Of a stretch of DNA of 45,911 nucleotides, positions 44,181-45,881 are shown in pieces (position 1 is the first letter of the stretch; every line of letters starts with the position of its first letter). The stretch comes from Candidatus Moraniibacteriota bacterium (GTDB lineage Bacteria > Patescibacteriota > Minisyncoccia > Moranbacterales > UBA1568), in assembly GCA_018061645.1 (NCBI GenBank), contig JAGOTT010000009.1, positions 1-45,911 on the forward strand, in the 5' to 3' direction. Made by a program: the position numbers and the translations under genes. The notes below the pieces were generated by a model, which was given only the letters and a program-made list of their open reading frames with translations, was not told the DNA's origin and did not search any database.

Positions 44181-45881
44181 ATGAAACTCCGTGACCGGAT
44201 CCGCCTGCGTTTCGCGGGAGTACTCCTGCTCGCCCTTGTTTCGGGTATCCTCGCATATCCGAAGATCTTTTCACTTATCCCGAATTTTCCGGGTGCGGAG
44301 GATATAGAGGAGACGCTCGCCATAAACCTCGGGCTCGACCTGCAGGGCGGCGTGCAACTCGAATACAACGCCGATGTCTCACAGATCCCGGATGACAAGA
44401 GATCCGAGGCGCTCGAGGCGGCGCTTGCGGTCATCGAGCGGCGTGTGAACGCGTTCGGTGTCGGTGAATCCGTCATCCAGCTGTCCAAGTCCGGATCCGA
44501 GGATCACATCATCGTCGAACTTCCGGGCGTGGAGGACATCGATGAGGCGAAGAAGATGCTCAAGGATACGCCGTTCCTCGAGTTCCGTGAGGATGCCGCC
44601 GCCGACTTCGAGGAGCAGTTCGCGAAGGACAACGAGGAATCCAAGAAGAAGGCGGGGGAAACACTTGTGCTCGCGACGAAAAAAGAGAGCGATTTCGCCG
44701 CGCTCGCGAAACAATACAGCCAGGACCCGGGCTCCAAGGATACCGGTGGCGATCTCGATTTCGCGAAGAGAGGGATGTTCGTTTCCGAATTCGACGAAGT
44801 CATCTTCAAGGACGATTTCAAGACGGGCGAGGTATATCCGGAGATCGTCGAAAGCCAGTTCGGATGGCATATCATCAAGAAGCTCGAAGAGAGGGGCGAG
44901 GGTGACGAGAAAGAGGTCCGCGCCGCACACATCCTCTTCCCGAAACAATCGATCGAGATGCTTCCCGATTCGACGCGATTCAAGGCGACCGGCCTCTCCG
45001 GGAAAAACCTCAAGGATGCGTTCGTGGACTATCAGGGGCAGGGATTCGGTGCGCCGCAGGTCGGTCTTCAGTTCGATTCGGAAGGCGCGCAGCTGTTCGC
45101 GGATATTACGAAGCGGAATCTGCAGAAGCAGGTGGCGATTTTCCTCGATGACGAAATCATCAGTGCGCCGACGGTGCAGAACGAGATCGTCGACGGACGC
45201 GCGGTCATCACGGGGAGTTTCACGCTCGAAGAGGTGAAGTCGTTGGTCGGACGGCTGAACGAGGGTGCTCTTCCGGTTCCGATAGAGCCGGTCGGACAGA
45301 AATCCATCGGCGAGTCGCTCGGGGAAGGCGCGCTCCGTGAAAGCGTTTATGCCGGTGCGGTCGGACTGCTTGCGGTCTCCGTGTATATGATTTTCTACTA
45401 CCGCTTCCTCGGGTTCGGAGCCGTCTTCGCGCTCCTCATCTACAGCGCGATGCTCCTCGCCCTGTTCAGGCTTTCCGGATTCACGCCGTTTCCGATCACG
45501 CTTACGCTCTCCGGTATCGCCGGATTCATCCTGTCCATCGGTATCGCCGTCGATGCGAACGTGCTCATCTTCGAGCGGACGCGTGAGGAGCTCGCCTATG
45601 GGAAGAGTCCGGCGAAAGCGCTCGAGGAAGGGTTCCGGCGCGCGTGGCCGAGCATCCGTGACGGTCATGTCTCGACGCTCATCACGACCGTCATCCTCAT
45701 GATGCTCGGGACCGGATTCGTGAAGGGATTCGCGATCATCCTCGCGCTCGGCGTGCTTCTTTCGCTCTTCACCGCGGTCGTGCTCGTCCGGACGTGGCTC
45801 CGTTTCGTGGTCGGCGACTGGGCGGAGAAATATCCGTGGCTCCTCGTCGCACCGAAAAAGCTCCTCGACGACGAAAAGTAG
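44181..45881 (+). CDS. secD: Protein translocase subunit SecD with a parvulin-like insert
   Basis: SecD uses the proton gradient to help pull secreted proteins through SecYEG. The 566-residue protein has an N-terminal helix (about 10-28), INLGLDLQGGVQLEY, the P1 segment ending FLEFRE, and five C-terminal helices with LSGIAGFILSIGIAVDANVLIF and GTGFVKGFAIILALG. Between FLEFRE and the conserved LSGKNLKDAFVDYQ lies an insert (about 145-255) that looks like a PpiC-type prolyl isomerase: DFAALAKQYSQDPGS (from residue 171), GGDLDFAKRGMFVSEF, FGWHIIKKLEE (His230) and then VRAAHILF (246-253). In ordinary parvulins the VRAxHIL strand comes first. secF is not within the 30 nt that remain after the stop. 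Confidence 0.93.
   Translation: MKLRDRIRLRFAGVLLLALVSGILAYPKIFSLIPNFPGAEDIEETLAINLGLDLQGGVQLEYNADVSQIPDDKRSEALEAALAVIERRVNAFGVGESVIQLSKSGSEDHIIVELPGVEDIDEAKKMLKDTPFLEFREDAAADFEEQFAKDNEESKKKAGETLVLATKKESDFAALAKQYSQDPGSKDTGGDLDFAKRGMFVSEFDEVIFKDDFKTGEVYPEIVESQFGWHIIKKLEERGEGDEKEVRAAHILFPKQSIEMLPDSTRFKATGLSGKNLKDAFVDYQGQGFGAPQVGLQFDSEGAQLFADITKRNLQKQVAIFLDDEIISAPTVQNEIVDGRAVITGSFTLEEVKSLVGRLNEGALPVPIEPVGQKSIGESLGEGALRESVYAGAVGLLAVSVYMIFYYRFLGFGAVFALLIYSAMLLALFRLSGFTPFPITLTLSGIAGFILSIGIAVDANVLIFERTREELAYGKSPAKALEEGFRRAWPSIRDGHVSTLITTVILMMLGTGFVKGFAIILALGVLLSLFTAVVLVRTWLRFVVGDWAEKYPWLLVAPKKLLDDEK

Follow-up and report, generated by a model that had tools for sequence, protein, structure and literature searches.

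The chaperone SurA of E. coli is reported to bind the holo-translocon (PMC9987972). All five top AlphaFold models in that work seat SurA on the P1 head of SecDF through both of its parvulin units, P1 and P2, and the EM and AlphaFold work together puts the SurA parvulins on this head (PMC9987972). PpiD, another parvulin, is described as associating with SecYEG in E. coli, and PpiD–YfgM resembles the arrangement described here in that a parvulin is held at the Sec translocon (PMC9643414). PpiD, however, is a separate membrane protein with the canonical order of strands. PrsA, PpiC, Pin1 and Par14 share with the domain described below the core from α1 to β4 and the active-site residues, but in these proteins the first strand of the fold comes first. 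The SecDF proteins (family TIGR01129; solved structures 3AQP, 5YHF and 5XAN) have the same domain order, GLDLQGG motif and fold as the SecD analysed here, which differs from them by a parvulin that separates the halves of its P1 domain; the SecDF chains listed by our structure searches match around this parvulin. No description of a SecD–parvulin fusion or of a circularly permuted parvulin was found in our searches of an open-access library, which covers few subscription papers and preprints. The SecD variant with a parvulin is new, both of its component families being already known.

The window analysed is a stretch of 45,911 nt from a Candidatus Moraniibacteriota bacterium, forming positions 1 to 45,911 of contig JAGOTT010000009.1. 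G025 (L015), a relative from the family of the window, has the same SecD sequence as L080, a Candidatus Moranbacteria record, which sets the window within or close to that group, among the Patescibacteria of the NCBI taxonomy. The last gene of the contig, which ends 30 bases past its stop codon, is secD (44181–45881, forward strand, as are all features below). It encodes a complete SecD of 566 aa, scoring 367.4 bits against the NCBIfam secD model TIGR01129 (cut-off 244.4; E 1e-109), and the genome, of 1.0 Mb, has no second match to SecD. The three expected Pfam domains are each above cut-off, namely the first half of P1 (SecD_1st, PF21760; residues 79–137, 44415–44591), ending in the strand FLEFRE (residues 132–138 in the AlphaFold2 model of the whole protein), the P1 head (SecDF_P1_head, PF22599; residues 269–366, 44985–45278, E 1.2e-28) and the transmembrane C-terminal part (SecD_SecF_C, PF02355; residues 373–534, 45297–45782, E 1.6e-13). 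Directly downstream of secD, relatives show a weak match to the membrane part of SecD that is probably SecF (e.g. G001 C1 19927). The window protein is, in our view, likely to be a functional motor subunit of the translocon whose extracytoplasmic P1 domain contains a permuted parvulin isomerase, probably taken from a SurA-like tandem.

Pfam, alignment, the strand profile described below and a model of the isolated insert all place the inserted parvulin at residues 138–268 (44592–44984), between the two halves of P1 and just ahead of the P1 head. A first-pass annotation of the window had located a parvulin-like domain at 44600–44960, between FLEFRE and LSGKNLKDAF, and this placement is borne out by the profile search that it proposed: the core from α1 to β4 (residues 146–237, 44616–44891) matches Rotamase_3 (PF13616) with 77.6 bits against a gathering cut-off of 22.5 (E 1.5e-21) and Rotamase (PF00639) with 64.8 against 21.7 (E 1.5e-17). 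The PpiC motifs quoted in that annotation are all present, the one given there as 'MVSEF-like' reading GMFVSEF. The NCBIfam whole-protein models of PrsA and SurA give the window SecD only 51 and 42 bits against cut-offs of 361 and 394, so that the parvulin domain alone is common with these foldases. Along the insert, β2 (residues 191–196, 44751–44768), a strand in the isolated-insert model, carries Asp191 of the GGDL motif; the pocket motif GMFVSEF (residues 198–204, 44772–44792) ends in Phe204; and β4 (residues 228–238, 44862–44894), a strand in both of our models, carries His230. A linker (44895–44912) that aligns with the linker between the P1 and P2 units of SurA leads on to EVRAAHILFP (residues 245–254, 44913–44942), the moved β1 strand with His250, which is again a strand in the models and lies in blocks with a pLDDT of 94–96.

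The canonical order β1-α1-...-β4 is thus absent from the insert, where β1 comes after β4. Our main test of this order was a profile of the strand alone. Its 11 columns derive from 98 canonical parvulin regions found in other bacteria (loci L092 and up); the scan took in some 55 residues on either side of each parvulin core, and 422 SecD segments served as the null. In the window the profile scores −3.0 bits upstream of the core and 19.5 bits downstream, the maximum of the null being 8.1 bits; VRAAHILF (residues 246–253) indeed comes last, after FGWHIIKKLE, as the first-pass annotation had read it. Conservation of the permutation extends throughout the order. Of 59 SecDs with a single insert, 55 exceed 99% of the null after the core and none before it, a set that includes near-duplicates (the identical SecDs of L015 and L080, and L028 and L051 from the same genome). 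Stand-alone parvulins of other bacteria, which are largely the training set, score above 99% of the null before the core in 96 of 99 cases; the 31 that score after the core too would, judging by the rows read, be SurA-type proteins with a second unit. Among stand-alone parvulins of Patescibacteria, 6/9 pass the strand-profile test, L022 (itself a SecD) being left out. Within the moved strand, H250, I251 and L252 hardly vary among 27 SecDs of the order, and in this they resemble the core.

The strand profile replaced a whole-domain rotation as the main test, the rotation being the weaker of the two. Putting the downstream segment first raised the score of the window insert by 3.9 bits (0/20 shuffles as high), and over 75 proteins the mean gain was 3.5 bits against 0.2 for shuffles, with shuffles reaching the gain in many single rows; the smallness of the gains is probably due to the strand being placed beside α1 across a gap whose length is unnatural. 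The Pfam parvulin match begins at profile position 28 of 116, which by itself proves nothing about permutation, since stand-alone parvulins often begin there too. We conclude that the insert is a permuted relative of the parvulin fold and not a canonical member of it.

An AlphaFold2 model of the whole SecD, built with 13 sequences, has a mean pLDDT of 81.6 and a pTM of 0.52, a value that makes the placement of the parvulin relative to the P1 head unreliable; residues 228–238 and 245–254 are strands in it. The model matches 5YHF (Z 22.8, 411 residues, rmsd 6.4) and 5XAN (Z 22.8, 407 residues, rmsd 10.8), so that the SecDF fold is kept with the parvulin as a separate part. Because the full-length searches list only SecDF and other RND-type proteins, the insert was also folded alone. 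With 18 sequences the isolated insert reaches a pLDDT of 93.2 and a pTM of 0.85, with strands at residues 191–196, 228–238 and 245–254 (model numbering is shifted by 139, model strand 52–57 being residues 191–196). The top 22 rows of its structural search are all parvulins, with Z from 7.2 to 15.5, and the next row drops to 3.5. Single canonical parvulins align over about 80–94 residues and end at model residue 97–104, before the moved strand, as is expected of a sequential aligner. The best match is the PPIase of 8HM3/8HM4, which aligns over 107–119 residues, reaches model residue 122–129 and has a Z of 15. This reach suggests that a strand after β4 in 8HM3/8HM4 sits where the moved strand sits in the insert, and a permuted parvulin unit may already be present, unremarked, among solved structures. 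We take the species of this PPIase, from the ligand name BfUbb, to be Bacteroides fragilis; it is a free protein of 427 aa and, unlike the insert, does not form part of a SecD.

These models bear on two other readings of the region. That it is the ordinary P1 head of SecD or a long linker we regard as having next to no probability: no point in its favour was found, the P1 head is present separately at residues 269–366, the linker at the insert site of five SecDs without an insert is just 34–68 aa long (short, as the first-pass annotation had said of simple SecDs), and the folding of the isolated insert as a parvulin, along with the Pfam layout, refutes it. The order of the sequence is by itself silent on which sheet VRAAHILF joins, and the strand might instead be an unrelated SecD strand, or complete the parvulin of another SecD molecule by domain swapping, leaving the parvulin without a first strand of its own. 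We hold this to be quite improbable in view of the strand-profile score, 19.5 bits with a null maximum of 8.1, and of the near invariance of its H, I and L; moreover, no strand of this kind occurs in the SecDs without an insert (0.1 at best), and the isolated insert is confidently folded over the moved strand, with β2 assigned as a strand that needs a partner. A permuted parvulin complete within one chain is the reading that we carry forward.

The survey of SecD in CPR genomes that the first-pass annotation had suggested was made in two samples. The order sample comprised 54 genomes, namely that of the window and those of relatives from its genus, family and order (Candidatus Moranbacteria). 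A SecD match was found in 51, with the insert region readable in 50, and the parvulin lies within the SecD frame in 49 of these 50, the sole SecD without an insert being that of G035 (L041); G026 has a SecD fragment only, and G015, G043 and G051 have no SecD match. In the phylum sample, 227/286 genomes have a SecD match at 1e-20, and most of these SecDs are without the insert, judged by split matches and frames of about 400–510 aa. A parvulin occurs anywhere in 133/286 genomes and, by frame length among the matches listed, in SecD or SecD–SecF frames of at least 47: 7 single, 17 of 682–738 aa, 12 of 807–981 aa and 11 of 1025–1114 aa. A further parvulin-carrying SecD frame, of 608 aa, was found in G298. 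In the class of G058, a different lineage of the phylum, 19 of 20 genomes have a SecD, which among the matches listed breaks off and resumes around the insert site in the manner of insert-free proteins. Outside the phylum, the survey covered the best 80 matches of the genome scan, among which the insert-bearing SecDs belong to Patescibacteria records, together with L088 and L102. The former (L088:2187–3968) is a Lysobacteraceae-labelled record with a Patescibacteria-type SecD and insert, probably a misbinned contig, and the latter is labelled just 'bacterium'. A search of plasmids for SecD gave only matches of half-query coverage or below 34% identity.

The active site of parvulins we take, from the residues of PrsA and Pin1, to consist of His, Asp, Phe and His. 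All four are present in the window insert, as H250, D191, F204 and H230. Among 58 distinct rows, D191 is kept in 49 (with Glu in 4 more), F204 in 55 and H230 in 54, and H250 of the moved strand is kept in 51/57 inserts; position 200 is Phe in the insert and mostly Met in canonical parvulins. The insert is under purifying selection. Its dN/dS is 0.07–0.14 in 10 of the 12 printed pairs (those with computable dS) and mostly above that of the rest of SecD, these values being rough since dS exceeds 1 in all but one pair. Inserts without the β1 His and other motifs occur in L039 and L040 from the order and in the more distant L056 and L057; judging by these degenerate copies and by the insert-free SecD of G035, the inserted parvulin is not indispensable. 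Within the order, L041 (G035), L039 and L040 offer a natural test of the need for the insert.

Besides the insert, nearly all genomes of the order carry one parvulin as a separate protein, about 355 aa long (L031:400–1479 on contig C3 of the window's genome, G000; L032–L038; L190–L229). This stand-alone parvulin is permuted as in SecD, since in all 48 proteins read the core follows no first strand but is itself followed by a strand-like segment, and differs from the insert in its eroded site and its helical N-terminal part. F204 is missing in 48/48, the position of D191 is Asp in only 16/48, and the His of the strand is replaced by Gln in 46/48 (rows read by eye). The intact active site in this order is therefore that of the SecD insert and not that of the free protein. 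In L031–L034 the gene of the stand-alone parvulin lies directly upstream of a gene for an HtrA-like protease.

This permuted stand-alone parvulin in the same genome, the match to a SurA-like tandem and the two-unit SecDs of related lineages all lie beyond what the first-pass annotation had covered. Those SecDs of 682–738 aa that were read (L058–L071, about 690 aa, from G207, G265, G331 and others) have two parvulin cores, the first degenerate, in the order core A, strand, core B, strand. The equivalent of H230 is present in 1/13 of the A units and in 19/19 of the B units, which also keep F204 in 19/19; the His of the strand is retained in the middle one (SHILI or AHLLI) and mostly missing from the last. 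This order by itself fits two permuted units in tandem as well as one unit nested in the other. Nesting is favoured because the last strand shares the decay of unit A, and the middle strand the intactness of unit B, a pattern suggesting that the doubled SecD is probably an intact canonical parvulin nested within a decayed permuted one. Other arrangements were seen in the phylum: in L161 and L164, SecD frames that continue into SecF (about 1035–1056 aa) have a P1 domain with a parvulin of canonical order, and L174:856–2292 (G223) encodes a protein of 479 aa in which a lipobox-like N-terminus is combined with a part resembling SecD P1 and with two parvulin cores, the SecD membrane part being absent, possibly a free copy of the SecD–parvulin arm.

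As to the origin of the permutation, an insert profile was aligned with E. coli SurA. The alignment covers the first parvulin of SurA, crosses the linker unbroken and takes in EVHARHILLK, the strand with which the second parvulin begins; a single insert sequence gives the same alignment at low score. The linker and moved strand of the SecD read LEERGEGDEKEVRAAHILF, and SurA-like proteins of Bacteroidota show the same join of linker and strand. In terms of the SurA structure (1M5Y), the insert corresponds to α1-β4 of P1, the P1–P2 linker and the first strand of P2, and both proteins are extracytoplasmic; SurA, however, is a free chaperone with two units and the SecD insert is one permuted unit. 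On the simplest account, the insert would be an out-of-register slice of a SurA-like tandem, its source probably having been a two-parvulin protein cut one strand out of register (α1-β4 of unit 1, the linker and β1 of unit 2). A tree of 121 rows and 87 columns groups 24/26 single inserts with weak support (85/84) and all 13 unit A cores (99/96); the donor of the insert does not emerge from it.

Instead of being made in SecD from a SurA-like tandem, the permutation could have come down from a stand-alone parvulin of the phylum that was permuted already, a possibility to which we give somewhat less than even weight. Permuted forms make up 12 of the 20 stand-alone parvulins among 30 loci across the phylum, besides the 48/48 of the order, and they occur in Pyrinomonadaceae too, in 3/3 proteins read. 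Seven of the stand-alone parvulins of the order, however, form a clade of their own in the tree (99/98) apart from the SecD inserts, the tree being poorly resolved, and the linker matches that between P1 and P2 of SurA, although a permuted stand-alone ancestor could share it. The Pyrinomonadaceae (Acidobacteriota) proteins are encoded at L095:7074–8597, L095:8710–10326 and L120:7185–8588. A further reading concerns function: the parvulin fold might be kept for binding only, as a substrate clamp or docking site with no catalysis, like E. coli PpiD, whose parvulin is called inactive in the title of a reference cited in PMC9643414. Several inserts have lost the β1 His, and the doubled SecDs retain their unit A although it is degenerate. 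Yet D, F, H and H are kept by most inserts, whereas the stand-alone parvulin of the order has lost F204 in every protein read, and where unit A decays, unit B keeps its H and F throughout. We therefore think binding without catalysis unlikely, and return to a prolyl isomerase with a probable SurA-like source.

We infer that the insert is most likely a prolyl isomerase tethered at the exit of the translocon. Our current working model is that the parvulin runs from α1 to β4 and then to β1, so that both of its ends would face SecD, with β1 closing the sheet beside β4. The insert would bind chains emerging from SecYEG and, as isomerase or holdase, would isomerize their prolyl bonds or keep them unfolded, riding on the movement of the P1 head during the SecD cycle. 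The observation made in the first-pass annotation is confirmed and its structural reading is supported; its suggestion that such a foldase would meet substrates as they emerge is plausible. The parvulin belongs to the same P1 domain. The fusion fits the published docking of SurA on SecDF, and it supports the reported contact of SurA parvulins with the P1 head; if the reading is true, a natural fusion would show that the SurA–SecDF contact of E. coli is old and useful. It is about an even question whether a CPR lineage has made the Sec motor itself a foldase, by setting a recut SurA-type permutant beside the substrate-handling P1 head; this permutant would then be the cell's parvulin with intact catalysis, the free one having lost its active site.

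Such a protein suggests that some bacteria fold proteins right at the exit from the cell membrane. At the outer face of the translocon, where secreted chains are received, free chaperones need to be recruited, whereas a chaperone domain fused to SecD would make the hand-over direct, and a motor and an isomerase in one polypeptide form a ready experimental object. The system is also a clear case of circular permutation in nature, for which living relatives offer likely intermediates (units in tandem, nested units and permuted free forms).

Isomerase activity outside the cell membrane would not be unique to SecD, as the window's genome also encodes an FKBP with a hydrophobic N-terminus, a putative anchor or signal. 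A cyclophilin is present in 30/54 genomes of the order. Within the family of the window, genomes tend to have either cyclophilin or a small FKBP: G000–G002, G006, G008, G011, G014, G017 and G019 have the FKBP without cyclophilin, and most other members of the family show the reverse.
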